Source: Cafeteria roenbergensis
Taxonomy: Eukaryota; Sar; Bigyra; Bicosoecida; Cafeteriaceae
NCBI GenBank assembly: GCA_008330645.1
Contig: VLTN01000034.1
Location: 62,001 to 126,000 of the forward strand
Reading direction: 5' to 3'
Length of the DNA: 64,000 nt
Part shown: in pieces, positions 7,069 to 30,906 of the stretch
How the letters are laid out: each line of letters begins with the position of its first letter
Numbering within the stretch: position 1 is the stretch's first letter
Position numbers and translations under genes: made by a program
Notes under the pieces: generated by a model
What the model was told of the DNA's origin: nothing
Seen by the model: only the letters and a program-made list of their open reading frames with translations
The model's database searches: none

Positions 7069-10000
7069 TCAGTGCGAAGCCCTGGGCGTCGCGGACTCGA
7101 TGAGCGCGGCGAGAGTCCCAGCCGTCACGCTCACCGCTGCGTCGGCATCTCCAGCACCGGCGACCAGGGCATGAAGCGTGGCGAGATCGAGCTTGTCTGC
7201 CGCTGGCAGCCTCGATGGCATCGATGCTCGCTTGGCATTGCCGATTGAAGTCGAAGTGTCGGCCCGTTGCGCAGGCAACAAGCTCGGAGACAGCAGCGTC
7301 GCAGCCGACTGGGACCCGGCGAAGGCGTTGGCGCCGCCTGAGGACGCACGGCGGACCTGCGGCCGAGCGTACCGGGGCCGCTCCGCTCGGAATGAAGCCG
7401 CTGAAGTGATTGGCGAACGCGATGCGGAGCTCATCGTGCGCTCTGCGACCCCGGTCTGAGACCCAGCGTCGGCTCCGTCGCCAAACGAGTGCCCTCCCGA
7501 GTCTCCGAGCGCGTCGCCCTCCGGAACGCGTGGAAGCGGAAAATGCCTTGCAGCGTCACGCCCGCCATATCCAGCAGGTGGGCGTGACTCGCGCTTGGGT
7601 GGCGTGGCTTTGGACTCCGTTGCTGACAGCGGCTCGACAGGTCGACCCAGCCCCCGCACGCTCTCCGGGCGCAGGTCAGGCGACAGGGACACGGCGCTTT
7701 CTGCGAATCCCACATCGCGGCCGAACCCTTGACTGGTCAACGAGCGGTGGCTCAGGGCGCCGAAGCCCAGTCGCCGGCTTCCAGCGCCACGCCGTGCCTC
7801 GTCCACTGACTGGGCCTCTGACACAACAGACTGTCCACCTCGCTCCGCCAAGTACTCTTGAATGTCAGCTCGCCACTCCTCGCCAGCAATCCCAGACTCA
7901 ACGGTGCCCCGCTCGCCGGTGAGCTCTGCCATGTCCACCTTTGAGCTCGGGAACCTCCGTTTACTTGCGGAGAGCTCTGCAGCAGCTGCATCAATATCCG
8001 ACCGCACACTCCCAGACTGCCGCGCGCCTCGGCCAGCAAGGGATCCGGCCCGGCCGCTGGAGTTGGCGGGGCGGGGAGGCATGCTCTGCTCTCGGGAGGA
8101 GCTCAGCGCCCTGGGGCTGCCCGAAGCATGAGCTGCCGATGACTCGCCGGGCTGGTCCGTGGCCGAGCTCTCCGCACGCAAGGTGTGCGACGCAAGCGCC
8201 GACATTTCTTTGGTCTGCACATCTCTCATGAGCGTGGAGACGAAGTTTGCCGCGATGCCCTTGGCACGCTTCTTCTCCTCCGAGTGCTTGGCGGCTGCGG
8301 AGCCCTTGGTCAGCTTGTCCAGCGTGACCCGCAGGCTCTCCTCCATTTTCTCCGCAAGCTGGGGGTAGTACGCCACGGTCGACCTCAAGTCGTCCTTGGT
8401 CAGGACGAACAAGTTCGAGTGCGTTACCGCGCGAGCCGACGACGACCGACGGATTCCCATCAGCAGTGCCAGCTCTCCGAAGTACGATCCCGGCTCGAGA
8501 AGAGCGTAGCGGTGCTCTTCCGCAGCGTCTGCGCCACTCAAGATCTCGATTTGTCCCTTGATCAAGAAGAACATCTCCGTGGCCATCTCGCCTTCGCGAT
8601 ACAGAAAGGCGCCCGGGTACACGAACTGAGGCCGCAGCAGGGAGACGAGAAGGGTCACAAACTCCCGATCCTTGTGGAAAAAGTACGGAACTCGCCGGAT
8701 GATGTCCATGTTGATAAACAGCACGACCTCCCGCCGAAGAGTGTCCGACAGCTCCTCCAAAATGACGTCTTCATCGAATGCCGACTTGCGACTGAGGTAG
8801 TAGTCGTAGTACTTGATAACCCGCCGAGCGAGGTTCTTAGGCGCCCCTTTGTCGTTCAAGTACTCCAACACTTCCGACATCTTCGCCTGATAGCGCATGC
8901 CGGACGCATCCAGCCGCGCGACCAGATGAGCCACGCTGCCGACGATGTATCCGAAGACCGTCGCGCCGATGAGCATCGCAAAGATGGTCACAACTATCTC
9001 TGGCTCGGTTCGGGGAACTATGTCGCCATATCCAACTGCAAGGGCAAGCAGCGAGCGCGGCGTGCGAGTCAATTGCGAGTGAGAGGGGGTGCCAGCGGCG
9101 CAGGCGAAGCTCGTCGAGATACAGCACCGAAGGGTTCCCGGGCGCTTTTGGCAATCAAAACTCACCAGTTGTCATCGTCGTAAAGGCCAAGTACAAAGCA
9201 GCCAAGTACTGCGACCCAAGCTCGTTCGGCGTGTTCACCGTCCACCAGTGGTCTTCCAGCGCGGCCTCGGCGCGATCGTTGCTGCCCATGATGCTGACGA
9301 AGAACAGCATGCAAGCCAGCACGTGCGCCCCCAGAGTGACCTGAAGCGCCACCTTGGCGAGTTGGATAATAGCCGGGGGCACGGTGATTCGGAGGCTCAG
9401 CCGCTGCATCAAGCGCCGGAGGCGGAAGAACCGGAATAGCTTCAACAACCGAACCAGTCGCACAGTACGCAGCAGCTTGAGAGACCGCAGCTCCGCGCCG
9501 GCCCCTCCCAGAGCGGCGCTGATCACGGTGTCGAACGGCACGCTGGACAAAAAATCCACGGCAAAGTTTCCGCGGACGTAGTGCACTGTCATGTCCCAAG
9601 CGACTGTGTTCAAGGCGTCCTCCTGCTCGTCGGAATACGCGGTGCGAAAGGCGCTGATCAGGTCGATCAGAAACACGGCATCAATCAGCGCGTCGAAGAT
9701 TGTCAGGCCGGTGGACTCCTCCACCGCGAAGCCGATGACCAGCGGCACTTCGATGAGGGTGACGAGAATCAGCATCGCCATAAGCATGTCGTACCGCACG
9801 CGATAGGGATCTCCAGGATGGAGCACGAGCCGCTTTCTCAAGGACGACTCAGACTCGATCGCCTCCTCCGGCCCGTCGGGCCCGCTACGGATAACTCGGA
9901 GCATCGTCACCTCAACCGCCTCTCCGGAAGAGCCGATTCCCTGGGGGAGATCCTCTTCAGGCACCATCTCGTCGTTGAGCAGCAGCATGTATCGGGCAGA

Positions 10001-22285: not shown

Positions 22286-22433
22286 TCAGTCTCCCCTCAC
22301 GCGCTTGGGCGCCGGCCCCGGGTCTGCGGACGAGCTCGGCTGCGCGGCCGCTGTGCCCGGCAGTGCAACGCTGCCAGGCGGCCCACACTCTCCTGCGCTG
22401 GAACGCGGCGCTGCCGCTGCAGCCGCTGCTGTG

Positions 22434-22476
<43 letters not shown>

Positions 22477-25404
22477 CGATTCTCTGTGCGGCTTGCGGTT
22501 TGCACCTCGCCACGACGGTGCCCATCGGCGGTTGCAGAAGCGCCAACGCAGCGGACATGCTGCTGCTCCACGGCCGCTGCCCCACGAGCGGAAGCACCAT
22601 CGACGCACTCCGGCGTCGAGTGCGCGCGCGCTCGGACTTGTGCCGGCGCAGGGCAGAGTGCCACTGCGCAAGGGCCTCCCGCCGTCTCCACCGCAGGGCG
22701 ACGTGCACCTCGTCGAGGCGGATGCCCATGCGCCCAGCCTCGGCAAGCACAGCAGCCGCTGAGACGGGGTCGGGCACAGGCAGGTCTGCTGCATGGGCCT
22801 CGAAGCCACGGGGAAACGGCAACACGCCATCCGGCAGCACCGGTCGGCCGGCGCGGGCACCGGAGCGCGAGCGCAGCGACGGAGGCGGCATGGGGCCCGA
22901 CACGATGCCTGTGGCCTGCTCGGCGGCAGCGGCCGCAGCCAGGGTGGCTGCCTTGCTTGCCGTCACCAGTCTGACCAGTCGCCGCATGCAGCGGCCGCCG
23001 CACTGCTCTGCGGAGCGTGCCACAGACGAGTCGTCCAGCGCGGAGCCGAAGAGCACATGGCAGGCAACAAGCACACCGACCGCATCACCGAGGCACGCCT
23101 CGTTGATGGGGGTGTTCCCGCTGGTGTCGGGCCGCGCGAGACTGCACCCCAGCCGTTCCACAAGCGCGATGACTGTGCCCGTGTGGCCGTGAATGGCCGC
23201 CCGGTGCACCGCCGTGTTGCCAAAGTTGTCCACAGCGTCCAGCGCAGATCCTCGGCCGGCCAGCTCCAGTACAGTGGCCGTGTGCCCTGCAGCTGCGGCA
23301 AGGTGGAGGGGGAGTCGGCCCCAAACGTCCCGAAGCGTCACGGTATCCGGCGCTGCGGCGGCGATGGTGGAAACAACCTTTGTGTGCCCAAGAATGGCCG
23401 CTGCATGGATCGGCGCCAAGAACAAGTGGTCCCTGGCAAGCGCGCAAGTGTCGTAGGCCGAGCTTGCGCAGCCAATGCCCACAGTGCTTGCCCCGCATCG
23501 GGAGGCCCGTAGCCGCACAGGCCGAGCGGTATCGGCTCCATCGGCGGGCGCGGGAGCAGCGGCTGCGGCTGCCCGCGCTTGGCTACGCCTGATGGACGGG
23601 GAAACCATGTCCCGACAGCCGCTGTTCGCGGTGAGGGGGGTCGATAACGAAGGCGAGGTCGATGGAGCTGCCCCGTTGACTCTCCGGCTACCCCGCCTGG
23701 CGAGCCATGGCTGGGCCAAGATCGCGGCCACAGCTTCGTGACCCGATGCAGCAGCAACATGCAGCGGGGTGCGGCCGAGCTGGTCGCGGTCCAGCGTGCC
23801 GCAGATGCCCCACTCAAGCAGTGCCAGGGCGGATTGGGCGCTGCCGATGGCAGCGGCAATGTGCAGCGCCGTCATGCCCGACGCCACATGCGTTGTCAGC
23901 ACGCCGCGGTCCGCAAGGGCTCGCGGCCCGGCTGACACAATGTCGGACACGGTTTCGTCGTTCGCCCCCGCCACTGCCACCAACAGGCGCGTAGCTGGCG
24001 ACAGAGCAAGCGCAGCAGCGTCGCCAACGGCCAGCTTCGTGAGCTGCTCCGCGTCGCTCAGTGCGCGCGGGGCTGTCTTGGCTGCCTCCTCATCCATACC
24101 GTGGCCGCGCCCACGCTCGTCGTCGCCCTCCTCTTCGCCCTCTCCAGCTGCCCTGGCCGCTGCCGCCGCGGCCCTCGCTGCCGCAGCCTGGGCAGCATCA
24201 CGCCGGGCAGCCGTGTCAGAGGCAGCAGCGGCCGAGACTGCTGCTGCGCCTGCGCTCGAACCCTCCTGCTCGCAGGCAGCAACGACGGCTGCAGCACCGC
24301 CTTGCCCGACACCCCTGCCGGTGCCCGCACTCGTGTCCCAGGCAGCAGCATGGGCACCATCGCCGCCTGCCCCTGCTGCTTCTGCCTCTGTGCCTCCACC
24401 GCCATCTCTGCGATGCCCACACATCGAAGCCGACTGGCCATCGCCACCGCCAGCGCCGCGGTCGCCAGAGCAGTCGCGAGCACAAATTCGCAAGGCGCTG
24501 CTGCTGCTGCTGCTGCTGGCTGGCAGGCTTTGAAAGCCGCTAGCCAGTCCCGCACGCTCCAGCCCGGAGGAGGAGCCAGCGTCTCCAGGCCGCGCAAGTC
24601 TCGCCCCCGACAGCGACATGCCCCCCTCGGCCGCGTCGGATCCCGCGCGCCCTCCCACCCAACTCGAGCCCGTGGAGTCCCCTGCCCGCCCCGCGCCGGC
24701 CGCGGCACTGGCCAGGCCGCTGCCATCGCCAATCCCCGTGCTGCCGCCGCCACCGCCACCACCGGCATACGCTGCCGATTGCAGCCCCGTGCCCAAGCCC
24801 GTTGAAGACCCAACGGCCTCTGCACCCGACGGCGCCACCCCCCCCGGCGCAGCGTCGACTGCCCTCCCTCGCTTCGTTGCACGCTCGCGCGGTCTGGGTG
24901 CTGGTGGCGCCCAGTCGCACGCCCCGCCATCACTGGCCCCGCCAAAGTCGCCAAACGCCCCGTACCCGCCTCCCACCCCTGCAAAGGAGCTGTGGGCGCT
25001 GGGGGGTTGACGTTCACCCGGCGTGCCGGGGGCGTTGTTGCCACCGCCCGCGGGCCACGCGGGCAGCGCCAAGGTAGCGGGTGTGATCTTGCTTCCTGGA
25101 ACGGCTCTGCCGACGTCTTGGAAGGGTACGTAGCAGGTGACTTCGCCCGCGACCTCCAGGCCAGTGACGTCATCGTCCTCGGCCGCGGCGGCGCCCGCGG
25201 CGTCGTCGGGAACGGCTGCGCTCACACCGTTGCCAGGGGCGGCGCGGCCGGCAAGCTCATGCTCCGCAGGCGGCGGCGGCGGCGGCGGCGGCGCGGCCTC
25301 CGCTGCGGCAGTGAGCACCCTCAGCGCCGCCGGCCGCCAGGCGATGCCTCGCTGGGACTCGGGGGGGTCGGCACCGTAGCCGGCCGCCCGGGAGGCGCCC
25401 TGCC

Positions 25405-25450
<46 letters not shown>

Positions 25451-26626
25451 TTGGCGGTGACTGCTGTGCCGGTCGTCGTCGTCGTCGTCGTCGTCGTCCT
25501 CGGCAACATCAATGTCCTCGTCATCATTGTCGTCGTCGTCGTCTGTGGCAGATGCCAAACCGGCCAGCGAGTCGCTGTGGCTGTGGGCGTGAGCGGCAGC
25601 CGATCGCTGTGGTTGAGCGAGGAGTTGTGCCGCAGCGACCGTGGCTCCGGGGCACGCCACCGGCTGGCGCGCATGCAGGCGCGGCGGGCGCGAGGGAGAA
25701 GGCGGCGCGGGCGCGGAGGGGTTGCCCTCCCGCAGCTGCCGGCGTGCGGAGCGGCGGCCTAGCGAGCGGGCCGATGCGGGGCTGTTGGCCGCAGACGCGC
25801 CGGCGCCGCCGCCAGCGCCCCAACCGGCGGTCGGGGTGCTGCTGCTACTAGCCCCCCCCGGGCAAGCGGCGGGCAGCCCCGTCGTGCTGGGCAGCGGCTT
25901 GTGCCCTGCCCAAATGTGGGCGGGTCCGGGGCGGGCAGCGGCGGCCGAGGATGCCGCGCCCGGGCGCGGCGCGCACGTCGGCGAATGGGCGCCCTCTCCG
26001 TCGTGGGGCGCCGAGTGCACGAACCAGTCACTGCTGCGGCAGCGTGCGTCGGCCGAGGCCTCGGCCGCCGAGGCGCAGTCGTGAGTCCAGCGAGCGGGGG
26101 AGTGAGTCACAGAGCGGCCAGTGCGGGACGTTGGGGTGTGCACCCCAGCCGCACCGCTCCCGGGCGAGTGGGCGGACATGCGAGCGCCGCCGTGTGCGAG
26201 GGCGAACGCCTGCTGAGCGTCGTCCTCGCTCTCGGACCGTGCAGCAGACACAGTCCTGGCTTCGTCCAAGTTCGGCGAGAGGCCCGCGCTGTGGCGCGAA
26301 GGGGTGCACCTGCACGAGTCGGTGCGGCGCCCAGGTCCACCGCTGCCTGGGCAGCCACCCGTGTCGCGAGCGCAGCAAGTGCATTGCGCACCCTTGCACG
26401 CTGAGTGCTGCCGCTGCCGGAGCAGGAGCTGCAGCGGCCCCCAGCACCCGCCGGCATCCCCCTCAGGCTCGGATGCCGCGGGGTCGTCGAGCGAGAAGCC
26501 TGCCGCGTTCATCCAAACGAAGCGGGAGGTCCTGAATGCGGCTTCTGCCGACTCGGCACGTGTTCTTGCAGTTGGGCCGCCTGGGTCTTGCGCAGCTCCC
26601 GCCCTGCCGCCCGCGGACGCGCGCAT
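22286..26626 (-). CDS. Large ankyrin-repeat protein, 1446 aa, rich in homopolymeric tracts
   Basis: One frame from ATG 26626 to the stop at 22286. Residues 1-860 are low-complexity (Ala, Gly, Ser, Pro, Asp), with a Gln tract and Asp tracts coded by triplet repeats, and no domain I recognise. Ankyrin repeats start near residue 870: MTALHIAAAIGSAQSALALL (about 918), TPLHVAAASGHEAVAAIL (about 950), then, after a Ser/Ala-rich gap, APIHAAAILGHTKVVSTI (about 1071), LPLHLAAAAGHTATVLEL (about 1105), TAVHRAAIHGHTGTVIAL (about 1136) and TPINEACLGDAVGVLVA (about 1170). The C-terminal part has a basic helix (HSALRRHKSERARTRRR) that may be a nuclear signal, a poly-Ser run and a basic end. It is probably an interaction scaffold. 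No catalytic domain is seen. Confidence 0.75.
22434..22473 (+). repeat. (GAC)n / (GTC)n microsatellite, 13 units
   Basis: Perfect triplet run; on the minus (coding) strand it is TCG repeated and codes the C-terminal poly-Ser of the large ankyrin protein. Confidence 0.9.
24497..24518 (+). repeat. (CTG)n run within the large ankyrin gene
   Basis: About seven CTG triplets. On the coding strand they read AGC and code a Ser run in this frame. Confidence 0.7.
25406..25447 (+). repeat. (CTG)n / (CAG)n microsatellite, about 14 units
   Basis: Perfect CTG run; the minus strand reads CAG and codes the poly-Gln tract of the large ankyrin protein. It sits beside (GTC)n runs at about 25468-25500 and 25527-25546 that code poly-Asp, so three triplet expansions lie within 140 bp. 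Confidence 0.9.
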
Positions 26627-27026: not shown

Positions 27027-30000
27027 TCACCGGGAGCGCTCGATCACGAACCAGCCGAAGGACCGCAGCATGATCTTGGAGAAGGAGTCGGGAATGACGC
27101 GGTCGAGCTCAAGCCAGGCCTCCTCGACCATGTCGCGGGCCTGCTCGACGCAGGCGGTGATGGCGCCGCACTTCTCCATGGTGGCGATGCAGCTGTCGAT
27201 GGTGGCGCGGTCCTCGGGGCGGGAGCGGATCTTCTCCCACAGCTCGGCCAGCTCCTCCACGGGCAGCGCGCCCGCGGCCTTGACCACGCAGATGGTGGCC
27301 TTGCCGGAGGTGATGTCCTCGCCGAGGGTCTTGAGCTGCTGCCCGGCCTTCTTGTCGGCGTCGGTGGTCATGAGGCCGCGCAGGTTGAGGACGTCGTCCA
27401 TGATCTGGAACGCCACGCCCACGTTCTCAAAGTAGGTGCCCATGGCCTCCACCTGGTCGGGCCTGCCCCCGCCGACGATGGCGCCCATGCGGGCAAGGGA
27501 CCCGGCCGGCACGGCGGTCTTGAGCATGTGGATGGCCAGCACCTTCTCCTCGAGCATGGCCGCGGCGGTGGCGGTCACCTCCTCGTCGTGCGGGGCGGCG
27601 CGGCGGGCGGCAATGCACTCGTCCATCACGTCCTCGAGGCCGGCGAGGTCCAGGGCCTGGCCGGCGTGCCCGCCGCGGAGCGCAGCGAAGTAGAGGTCGT
27701 AGACGCGGTTCAGCACCTGCGGGGTGAGGTAGGGGAGGGTGATCATCTTCTGGCCCTGGAAGTAGGCGGCAGTGCCGGCGTTGATGGCGATGGCGTCGCC
27801 GAACTTGAGGTGGGCGCACTCGCGCCCGCGGCGGACGAGGGACTTGTCCTGGAAGTCGTCAACGATGAGGGAGCCCACGTGCATGAACTCGGGCATGGCG
27901 AGCCAGTCGACGAACTTGCGGGAGTCGCCGCCCACCACGTCCATGCAGGCCAGGGCGCCGTAGGAGCGCCACGACTTGCCACCCGCGTCGGAGATGTGGC
28001 GCACCGGCTGGAGGAGGTAGCGGTCGATCTTGGTCATGTCCACGCCCTTCATGAAGTGGCGGGTCTCCTCATCGGCCACGAGGTGGACGCCGGCCTCCAC
28101 GTCGGGCTTGTCGGGGTACACCTTGCGCACGCGGTTGCGCACCTCCTTGCCGACGGCCTTGAAGAAGTCGTTGAGCTTGGAGATGCCGCCGAAGCCGTTG
28201 CGCTCGACGTAGCCGAGGCCGGTGACGGGCTTGCCGCGGAAGGTCCCGGTGGCGCGCACGCGGCCCTCCCAGAAGGCGGGCTTGGCGATGATGGTCATGA
28301 GCTCCTGGTCGGCCACCTCCGCCTCGAGGGTGAGCTCCAGGCGCTCCGAGGGGAGCTTCACGTGCCAGGTGAGGGGGTAGCGCATGAACGTGCGGCAGGA
28401 GCTCCACTCGTTGGAGCCCGTGAAGGTGAGGTCCGTGGGCTGGGTGCGGCTGCCGTCGGTGTCCACGACGATGCAGACGTTCTCGATGGAGCCCGCCACG
28501 CCCTCGAGGCTGGACACGCCGTCGGTGGCGCGGGGGTTGAGGACCTGGGACACGCTGACGTCGACGCCGTTGTCGAGCTGGATGGCGGACCAGTTCCATG
28601 CGTACTGCTGGGGGGACTCGCCCTCGGGGCGCTCGGCGCCTCCGAACTCGTGGTCGTACCAGCCCTGGCCCTTGGTCACCTTGCGGGTGACGCCGTCCGC
28701 GAGGGTCACGGAGCCGGTGACGTCGTTGCGCGTGCAGAGGTAGTAGAACATGTCGTCGCCGTTGTGGCCCACCACCACGCCGTCGTTGCCGTGGCGCACG
28801 GCGGGCTTCTTGGGCTCGAGCTTGAGGTCGATGGCGGCCTTACCGTCCTCGGTGTGGGCGGTCACGTGGTAGCGGCCGTCCTCCGTCTTCTTGAGCTGGG
28901 CGAACTTGAAGTCGAGGTCGAGGCGGTCCATGGGGTAGGTGACGTCGTCCTCGAACTTCTTGTCCGGGAGGGGCACGTTGCCGCGCTGCAGCACCTCGCG
29001 GTACGCGCGGAGCAGGAGCGGGTCGCGGATGATCTCGCGGCGCTCCATGAGGCGGAGGATGATGCCCGGGGCGTCCTTGTCCACGATGGTCTCGAAGTGG
29101 TACGACGGCTCGTCGAGGATGGCCTTCTCGGCCTCGGCCTTGTTGGCAGAGGGGCGGCGCGGGTCGTACTTGGCGGCCTCGCGGCCGGCGGCGGTGGAGG
29201 AGGCGGCGGAGCCCTCGGAGCCGGGGGCGCCGCAGTCCGTGAGGGCCCAGTTGAGGGCGTGGCCGAAGGTCTTCTCGCCGGTGAGCTGGTCGGTGCTCTT
29301 GACGGTGCGGAAGAAGGCGAGGTAGCAGGACACCTTGCGGCCGTCCTCGAGCTCCAGGTGGGTGTTCACGTACCACCACTCGGTGGTGGAGGACGCGTGG
29401 GGGAGGTCGTGCACGGCGAGGTCGATGGGGCCGAAGTAGCTGGGCCAGTCGGGGCGCAGCGGCTGGCGGAGCAGCGACTTGGTGGCGTCGGCGTCGCGGG
29501 CGGCAGGGGTCATGACGACGGCCTTGAGGAAGGCGTCGATGTGGCCGGACTGGATGGCGAGGTAGTCGGAGTGCACGGAGGAGGAGGTGGCGGACAGAGC
29601 CTTCACCCACGCGGAGGGGGAGGAGGCGGAGCCGGAGGAGGTCTTGTTGGCCTCCAGGGCGCGAGCGACCTCGGCAAAGTCCTCGGGGAAGCGCCAGACG
29701 CTCTGCTCGGAGCCGTCCGACCACCGGGACACCACGCGGAACTGGGGCCGGCCGGCGTTGGGGTTGGCGATGCGGGCACGGCGCTCGAGGGGCTGGTTGG
29801 GCCCGCGGGCGAGCTTGCGCGAGGCCGAGGCCACGACGGCGGCGTGGGTCTCGTCGTACTTGGGCGCAGTGCGGAACTCGACGACGGCCACGGACACCAC
29901 GTGGGCGAGGCGGCGCGCGGGCTCCACGGCGGGCGGCTCCTCCTCCGCGCCAGCCGCGCTGGCAGCCTTTGCGGCGCCTGCAGCGGCCGACGACGCGGCG

Positions 30001-30906
30001 GCGGCGGCGGCGGGCATGGGAGTCACGGACTTCTCGTCGGCCTTGGACTCGAGGGCGTCACTGCGGAGCGCGGAGAGCGTCGGGGCGAATCGGGCGCATC
30101 AACCGAGTCGAAGCAATCGCGGAGGCTGCCGAGGCCGTGGCCAGGCCCCACCAGGGCCGGCACACGGGACAACACCCAGTTGGCCGATGGGAGGCTTCCA
30201 GCGTGCGGCAGGCTGGGGCGGGGCGACGGGAGATTCTGCGAGACAGCCTCGCGCGACTGCAGTCGCCACAGAGCTGCGCTCGGCCTGGCCCCGAGGTTTG
30301 CCCCGGGCTTCAATCCCGGGGGCAACCGGCGAACCAAGGGCCCGCCCGCGGGCCACGAGCACCAGGGCCCGGCCCGGCGCAAGGGTGAGGCTGTGGCAAC
30401 GAGGTTGCTGGGCGGCAACGCCAGCGCGCGCCCTGAGGTCGCGAAGTGGCGGGCGCCCTCAGCACGACGACGACCGGCCACCCCCTGGGGCAGTCTGGCC
30501 GTGCTGGTGCCCCTCTCGCTCCGTGTGCGCCACACACCCGCCCCTGGGGAGGGCGCACGCCCGCGGGCCGGTCCCGACCCTTCACGCGGGAAGCCCGGCC
30601 AAGTTGAGGAAGGCCCAACCACGTGAAGGCACTCGCATCATTGCAATCGCTCGCAGCGCAGCGCCATCCGCCCCTCTCCCGTCGGCGGCCGGGCCCGCAA
30701 GGGCGCCCCCCCCTCACAAGCGTCCAGGCGCGCACCGCGGGCACACGGCGCTGGCGGCCGCAAGCGGGGCGCCCCGCGCCGCGCGAGCTGAGGGAGGCCG
30801 AAAAAGGTTCAACTTGACGTTTTGGCCGCAGGCCGGGTCGCGAGGGCGCGGCGCTGGTGTGTGCCGGGGCTCACCTCGACGTGACCGGCTTGGCAGCGGC
30901 GGCCAT
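27027..30906 (-). CDS. Fusion protein: CrtC/AttH lipocalin-like module joined to an isoprenyl diphosphate synthase
   Basis: Exons complement(30875..30906) and complement(27027..30060). A GTGAGC donor and CTCCGCAG acceptor (814-bp intron, phase 2) give 1021 aa beginning MAAAAKPVTSSDALESKADE. Residues about 55-190 hold a region vaguely like a PX fold (VWRFPEDFAEVARAL), uncertain. About 205-640 match the CrtC/AttH (carotenoid hydratase/lipocalin-like) family: EWWYVNTHLELEDG near 238, then GQGWYDHEFGG and YAWNWSAIQLDNG. Residues about 680-1000 are an all-helical trans-isoprenyl synthase with first Asp-rich motif DDFQD (745-749) and second motif DDVLN (about 899-903, in FQIMDDVLNLRG), the pattern of FPP/GGPP synthases. 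Both Mg-binding motifs are intact, so the synthase should be active. The AttH module may act on or bind the isoprenoid product; that is inference. If the first exon is wrong, the next ATG is at 30017. Confidence 0.88.

Follow-up and report, generated by a model that had tools for sequence, protein, structure and literature searches.

A 64,000-nucleotide stretch of contig VLTN01000034.1 from the Cafeteria roenbergensis assembly GCA_008330645.1 (positions 62,001 to 126,000 of the forward strand; hereafter the window) carries a minus-strand gene whose product joins a CrtC/AttH-like domain to a trans-isoprenyl diphosphate synthase (IPPS). The frame, at window positions 27027-30062, has no inner stop and translates to 1011 amino acids. 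Along it, Pfam matches to CrtC (PF07143; 72.5 bits, cut-off 22.5), Lipocalin_9 (PF17186; 69.2 bits, cut-off 26.2) and polyprenyl_synt (PF00348; 142.3 bits, cut-off 27) follow one another in the domain order that an earlier note had read from this DNA, and the motifs EWWYVN and GQGWYDHEFGG are both found in the protein. The arrangement does not arise by chance, because bacterial homologues align across both domains and their junction, with 46-52% identity to the window protein along the entire length for the relatives collected first. The fusion is thus confirmed as real and as encoded in a single minus-strand frame.

The features of the gene are collected in Table 1. Splicing a putative upstream exon in frame to the main exon yields the 1021 amino acids proposed in the earlier note; translation could also begin at an ATG within that main exon (about 30017). 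AlphaFold models both domains with confidence, the first as a double-lipocalin fold that resembles AttH and kievitone hydratase and the second as a trans-isoprenyl diphosphate synthase fold.

Table 1. Features of the fusion gene, in window coordinates
Feature	Position	Strand	Remark
Putative exon 1 (MAAAAKPVTS + 2 bases)	30875..30906	-	in-frame GT..AG join to exon 2
Putative intron (GTGAGC...CGCAG)	30061..30874	-	consensus borders only
Main exon, including stop codon	27027..30060	-	open frame; N-terminal extension, CrtC/AttH domain and IPPS domain
N-terminal extension, ~200 aa	29451..30060	-	no homologous counterpart in aligned bacterial fusions; PX-like by eye
CrtC/AttH double-lipocalin domain	28185..29450	-	residues 205-626 of the 1011-aa frame
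EWWY motif	29370..29381	-	EWWY in 43/44 fusions
Asp470 in WYDHEFG, equivalent of catalytic Asp268 of RgCrtC	28653..28655	-	alignment
WNW, equivalent of Trp283/Trp285 of RgCrtC	28590..28598	-	WxW in 43/44 fusions
IPPS domain	27030..28184	-	residues 627-1011; abuts the lipocalin domain directly
First Asp-rich motif DDFQD, Gly-Ser at -5/-4	27846..27860	-	DDxxD and Gly-Ser in 44/44 fusions
Second Asp-rich motif DDVLN	27384..27398	-	DDxxN in 42/43 rows reaching the motif

A bacterial family of fusions

A GTDB-wide scan with the window protein, run on one genome per species and limited to sequences in which at least one of six short peptides is matched exactly, so that many relatives are missed, returned 42 relatives, of which 14 match both halves and 28 only the IPPS half. 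Thirteen of the 14 match about residues 201-1009, the remaining one (L019) being cut by a contig end, and their records include Myxococcales, Nannocystaceae, Deltaproteobacteria and Schekmanbacteria. With a profile built from the first relatives, the fusion was found in 44 of 377 genomes sampled evenly from Myxococcota, the phylum of the Nannocystaceae bin G001 (three of the 44 have it in two contig pieces), and in one of eight genomes from the phylum of the Schekmanbacteria bin. One genome in the Myxococcota sample, G264, holds two full-length copies, on contigs C602 and C566. The domain order read in the earlier note stands; what that note missed is that the fusion belongs to a bacterial family, of which the protist is a likely recipient. 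One scan of a viral collection returned a single stretch matching the search pattern and no relative, and PHROGs gave one match only, at E 0.07; a source in that collection was rejected.

In a quick tree of the IPPS domain, with 45 stand-alone IPPSs as outgroup and the truncated L019 excluded, all 43 fusions used fall on one side, separate from the stand-alone enzymes (branch value 100). The bacterial fusions L122, L123, L120 and L124 lie outermost, and the window protein lies inside, beside the Nannocystaceae-type fusions L008, L009 and L018 (SH-aLRT 89). Because the protist copy nests among bacterial fusions, a transfer from bacteria to the protist is likely and is the simplest reading, with a myxobacterium as the probable source. 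GC content at third codon positions (GC3) is 0.98 for the fusion gene, 0.96 for a host gene of farnesyl diphosphate synthase (FPPS) type and 0.95 for the host squalene synthase; since the value is host-like, the transfer does not look recent. Several results temper this account. The full-length tree agrees only weakly, with the window protein on a long branch (86/18), and the data do not reject a tree in which the window protein stays outside the 39 main rows of bacterial fusions (p-AU 0.22). In a tree of the AttH domain the fusions do not form one side of a branch and L122, L123 and L124 fall apart from the others, so that a single origin of the AttH half is not established. The comparison, moreover, is one of bacterial relatives, and further protist copies could exist. 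Among stand-alone IPPSs, the highest score with the profile of fusion IPPS halves belongs to L060 (G005, frame from 1269; 210.7 bits). It resides in the same genome as the fusion L012, and no AttH-like frame was found at its locus as far as that was examined.

Alignment with the bacterial sequences starts only at residues 186-205 of the window protein. A stop codon lies at most 10 codons upstream of the match in six of the 14 bacterial frames, the start being unsure in the other eight. Because of these match starts and nearby stops, the first ~200 residues look like an addition made in the protist. The earlier suggestion that they are PX-like was not confirmed: no Pfam PX match (PF00787) occurs in the window protein at E≤10, the gene is not among 21 PX places scored across the host genome, and the AlphaFold model carries no confidence in this region, with pLDDT mostly below 50. 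Single-sequence hhalign comparisons of the N-terminus with two host PX frames gave E 0.065 over 29 residues and 0.32 over 4 residues, the latter no better than three wrong frames (0.39-0.87).

Residues, neighbours and host context

The first Asp-rich motif of the IPPS half is DDxxD in every fusion aligned. The second, which the earlier note had also described as intact, is DDxxN rather than DDxxD, and this is the rule for the fusion family. DDxxN also occurs in eukaryotic synthases of geranylgeranyl diphosphate (GGPP). The invariant Gly-Ser pair before the first motif speaks, by general rules for chain length, against a stop of the farnesyl diphosphate type. Short-chain and GGPP-type IPPSs (1wy0; IdsA-like models) differ from the fusion in lacking its N-terminal CrtC/AttH domain.

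The CrtC/AttH half retains the Asp equivalent to Asp268 of RgCrtC in 44 of 44 fusions, as do four of four CrtCs and two of two AttH proteins; the equivalents of Trp283 and Trp285 are each present in 43 of the 44, and WYDHEFG is identical in 43. CrtC (Rubrivivax, Roseobacter) has in common with the fusion PF07143, the catalytic Asp and Trp-x-Trp, whereas its chain contains no IPPS; none is attached to AttH (Nitrosomonas 2ich, Agrobacterium) either. RgCrtC hydrates many terpenes of C12-C20 at their terminal prenyl unit, and its activity depends on Asp268 and Trp110/283/285 (PMC12402844). Kievitone hydratase of Nectria haematococca (PDB 7a0q/7a0t), likewise a stand-alone protein with no IPPS and 17% identical to the window domain over the structural alignment, adds water to a prenylated isoflavanone (PMC6013536). 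By analogy, we infer that the window domain could add water to a terminal prenyl double bond in a similar manner.

Variants of this half were also seen. One fusion (L124:7844-10057) lacks the usual CrtC/AttH motifs, with HYDRLIG in place of WYDHEFG and the Asp kept, so that the two halves may be separable. The host has a second, very divergent CrtC-like gene (L002; G000:C4:363521-363775) with GWLDHQWG for GWYDHEFG, and no IPPS match was found at its locus on C4. A further sequence considered as a possible CrtC, L125, was assigned to AttH on the basis of SWLDREWSS and its grouping with AttH.

Gene neighbourhoods were compared for 34 bacterial loci from 33 genomes (L033 and L109 share genome G014), the list of neighbours excluding the near-copies L117 and L033. 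The Pfam tally covers 78 of 161 listed neighbouring open reading frames, all from L105-L124, with 25 of 61 matched families shown; at other loci some genes were scanned singly, and neighbour families are counted with no comparison to random loci. No Pfam family has more than three members among the 78 neighbours, and contexts are therefore varied. Among the genes scanned, some glycosyltransferase-like gene is present at 12 of the 34 loci (L008, L009, L010, L011, L013, L016, L017, L024, L118, L120, L122 and L123). At L017, the fusion ends at 7256 and a frame for an EryCIII/UDPGT-like glycosyltransferase follows directly, opening at 7263; L118 and L122 have GT4 genes; and L120 surrounds the fusion with a P450, a GDP-mannose dehydratase, an epimerase and a weak GT28/MGDG-synthase-like gene. 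L123:5575-10101 (+) is a single frame of 1509 amino acids that combines a sulfotransferase, a glycosyltransferase, CrtC/Lipocalin_9 and polyprenyl_synt. A recurrent neighbour is a family for which the members scanned have no Pfam match, found at 10 of the 34 loci and adjoining the fusion in eight by gene order. Its model (pLDDT 88.9) has as its best 21 PDB matches proteins that we take to be GT-C glycosyltransferases throughout, at low TM-scores (0.30-0.39). At L109:3-10087, the fusion is preceded on its own strand by genes for an isochorismate synthase and for MenH-, MenA-, MenC- and MenE-like proteins, with ~125 bp between the last of these and the fusion. The isochorismate synthase and MenA score above their NCBIfam cut-offs, and the MenH-, MenC- and MenE-like genes fall under theirs. 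An HMG-CoA reductase gene lies upstream of the fusion in L012.

Cafeteria strain BVI is a plastid-less marine bacterivore with a BUSCO score of 83.2% (PMC6972860). The host assembly comprises 36,303,456 bases in 167 contigs and was searched in six frames, exon by exon, so that gene counts are lower bounds and genes split by introns could be missed. Three IPPS genes were found, on C75, on C3 and in the fusion; judging by their motifs, we take C75 to be of FPPS type and C3 of COQ1 type. Three loci with matches at the general level of protein-prenyltransferase beta-like sequences suggest that the host needs GGPP. Because the fusion is the sole IPPS found besides those of FPPS and COQ1 type, it may, by elimination, be the host's source of GGPP, unless GGPP is also a product of one of the other two or the assembly lacks a gene.

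Two host genes match SQS_PSY. L050 (region of G000:C18:148443-149267) is a squalene synthase over cut-off (TIGR01559, 380.6 bits), and the same open frame of at least 988 amino acids holds an IPP-isomerase-like domain under its cut-off (TIGR02150, 94 bits); it represents an IDI-SQS fusion of the kind present in diatoms. L051 scores only 54.8 bits where HpnD requires 278.6, matches no phytoene-synthase model at E≤0.01, and has phytoene synthase as its best PDB match at E 0.1. Thus no phytoene synthase was recognised among the host SQS_PSY matches in a search that an intron-split gene could escape. Seven host genes match the broad Amino_oxidase family, to which phytoene desaturases also belong, at no finer resolution.

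Proposed function and alternatives

With a confidence somewhat short of even, we propose a bifunctional enzyme whose IPPS half builds a prenyl diphosphate and whose CrtC/AttH half hydrates its far end, in keeping with the earlier idea of one protein that produces a prenyl diphosphate and possibly goes on to modify it. The C-terminal domain would condense IPP units into an all-trans prenyl diphosphate of C20 or longer, and the N-terminal domain would receive the far (omega) end of that chain. There Asp470, lined by Trp residues, would protonate the terminal isopropylidene double bond, and water would quench the cation to leave a tertiary hydroxyl. Chain building followed by end-hydration would be the simplest joint reaction, because GGPP ends in the same isopropylidene group as the one hydrated by RgCrtC. 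In bacteria, neighbouring enzymes could glycosylate, sulfate or oxidise the hydroxyl; in the flagellate, the gene was probably acquired from a myxobacterium and then gained its new N-terminus. What the analysis establishes is the fusion, its family, the conserved sets of catalytic residues, the predicted folds and the nesting within the IPPS tree; the product, the hydration, the fate of the hydroxyl and the cellular role are inferences.

A number of findings weigh against hydration. The Asp268 equivalent is present in 23 of 23 stand-alone Myxococcota relatives and each Trp in 22 of 23, and both AttH proteins have them as well; Asp and WxW are therefore markers of the superfamily, not of hydratases. 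Alanine mutants of RgCrtC are dead at four residues, including His239, Trp241 and Tyr266 (PMC4717167). These three are present in four of four true CrtCs, taken as references from purple-bacteria plasmids, and are not kept in the fusions: His occurs in 2 of 44, Trp in 0 of 44 and Tyr in 0 of 44 (43 have Trp in its place), the first two columns depending on local gap placement in the alignment. RgCrtC converts only 4% of geranylgeraniol, and the substrates named in the available part of that account include no prenyl diphosphate (PMC12402844). At 22 of the 34 loci no glycosyltransferase was found among the genes scanned, in neighbourhoods that are diverse and have no background control, and the context of L109 points to menaquinone instead.

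The menaquinone genes of L109 and the recurrent GT-C-like neighbour are what would be expected if the lipocalin domain were a non-catalytic holder that binds the chain made by the IPPS half and fixes its length or passes it to MenA, other UbiA-type enzymes or GT-C proteins. Many lipocalin folds do no more than bind, and the GT-C fold generally uses polyprenyl-phosphate sugars. Nonetheless, the invariant Asp, the Trp pair and the near-identical WYDHEFG are more than binding would seem to need, and we regard a holder as rather unlikely. Still less probable is that the CrtC/AttH domain cyclises or isomerises the prenyl chain in a reaction started by a proton, which would make the whole a new type of two-domain terpene synthase. 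CrtC has been likened to squalene-hopene cyclase for its acid Asp and aromatic lining (PMC4717167), the fold matches include the prenyltransferase domain of a fungal copalyl diphosphate synthase (6v0k), and a P450 lies near the fusion in L120. Fungal fused cyclase-prenyltransferases divide labour in the same way: as in the fusion, the chain that forms the prenyl diphosphate also carries another domain that looks catalytic. That other domain is a terpene cyclase, however, whereas in the fusion it is N-terminal and of lipocalin-type CrtC/AttH fold; the characterised fold relative listed, kievitone hydratase, adds water, and a small number of literature searches, none aimed at that alone, turned up no cyclase acting on prenyl diphosphates with a lipocalin fold.

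A carotenoid 1,2-hydratase fused to its own supplier of GGPP would account for the PF07143 match and recalls the Roseobacter photosynthesis cluster, which has crtC, crtD and a polyprenyl synthetase gene side by side; the Amino_oxidase matches would allow for a phytoene desaturase. The earlier note's mention of carotenoid hydration is nevertheless not sustained, and we rejected this explanation as very improbable. Besides the missing essential residues and the phytoene synthase that was not recognised in the exon-wise host search, the NCBIfam CrtC equivalog NF045922, which gives the Roseobacter CrtC 521 bits, has no match in the window domain at E≤0.01 (the model is named for the Rhodobacter type, and other CrtC types may miss too), and no crt gene is among the neighbour families shown. 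Diet could still supply a carotene substrate. That the gene is an assembly or annotation artefact or bacterial contamination, as the bacterial nature of its relatives might suggest, is scarcely credible and was likewise rejected: it occupies one frame of a contig 400 kb long, in a genome of 36.3 Mb, with an ankyrin-repeat frame and a ribosomal L25-like gene nearby, an N-terminus of its own and GC3 like that of the host FPPS type, and the fusion recurs in independent bacterial assemblies.

Returning to the synthase-hydratase, a broader claim is more doubtful: that a Myxococcota family of such enzymes supplies omega-hydroxylated GGPP or longer chains for glycosylated or sulfated terpenoids, and that one member has become, by lateral transfer, a stramenopile's only GGPP synthase. 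The domains are known ones, and their combination is conserved over a bacterial family. The literature searched, which mostly excludes subscription papers, contained no description of a CrtC/AttH-IPPS fusion, in agreement with the earlier impression that no enzyme with this order had been described. If the proposal is correct, the fusion would represent a second class of two-domain terpene enzyme, pairing chain building with end-hydration instead of cyclisation. Its product would carry a hydroxyl ready for sugars or sulfate and would be a precursor to test for in as yet unknown lipids or terpenoids of myxobacteria. The enzyme would also provide a natural template for the production of tertiary terpene alcohols out of simple precursors, and a core isoprenoid enzyme of a protist may be of bacterial origin.

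The ankyrin-repeat frame near the fusion gene is large, occupies window positions 22289-26626 on the minus strand and includes low-complexity stretches.

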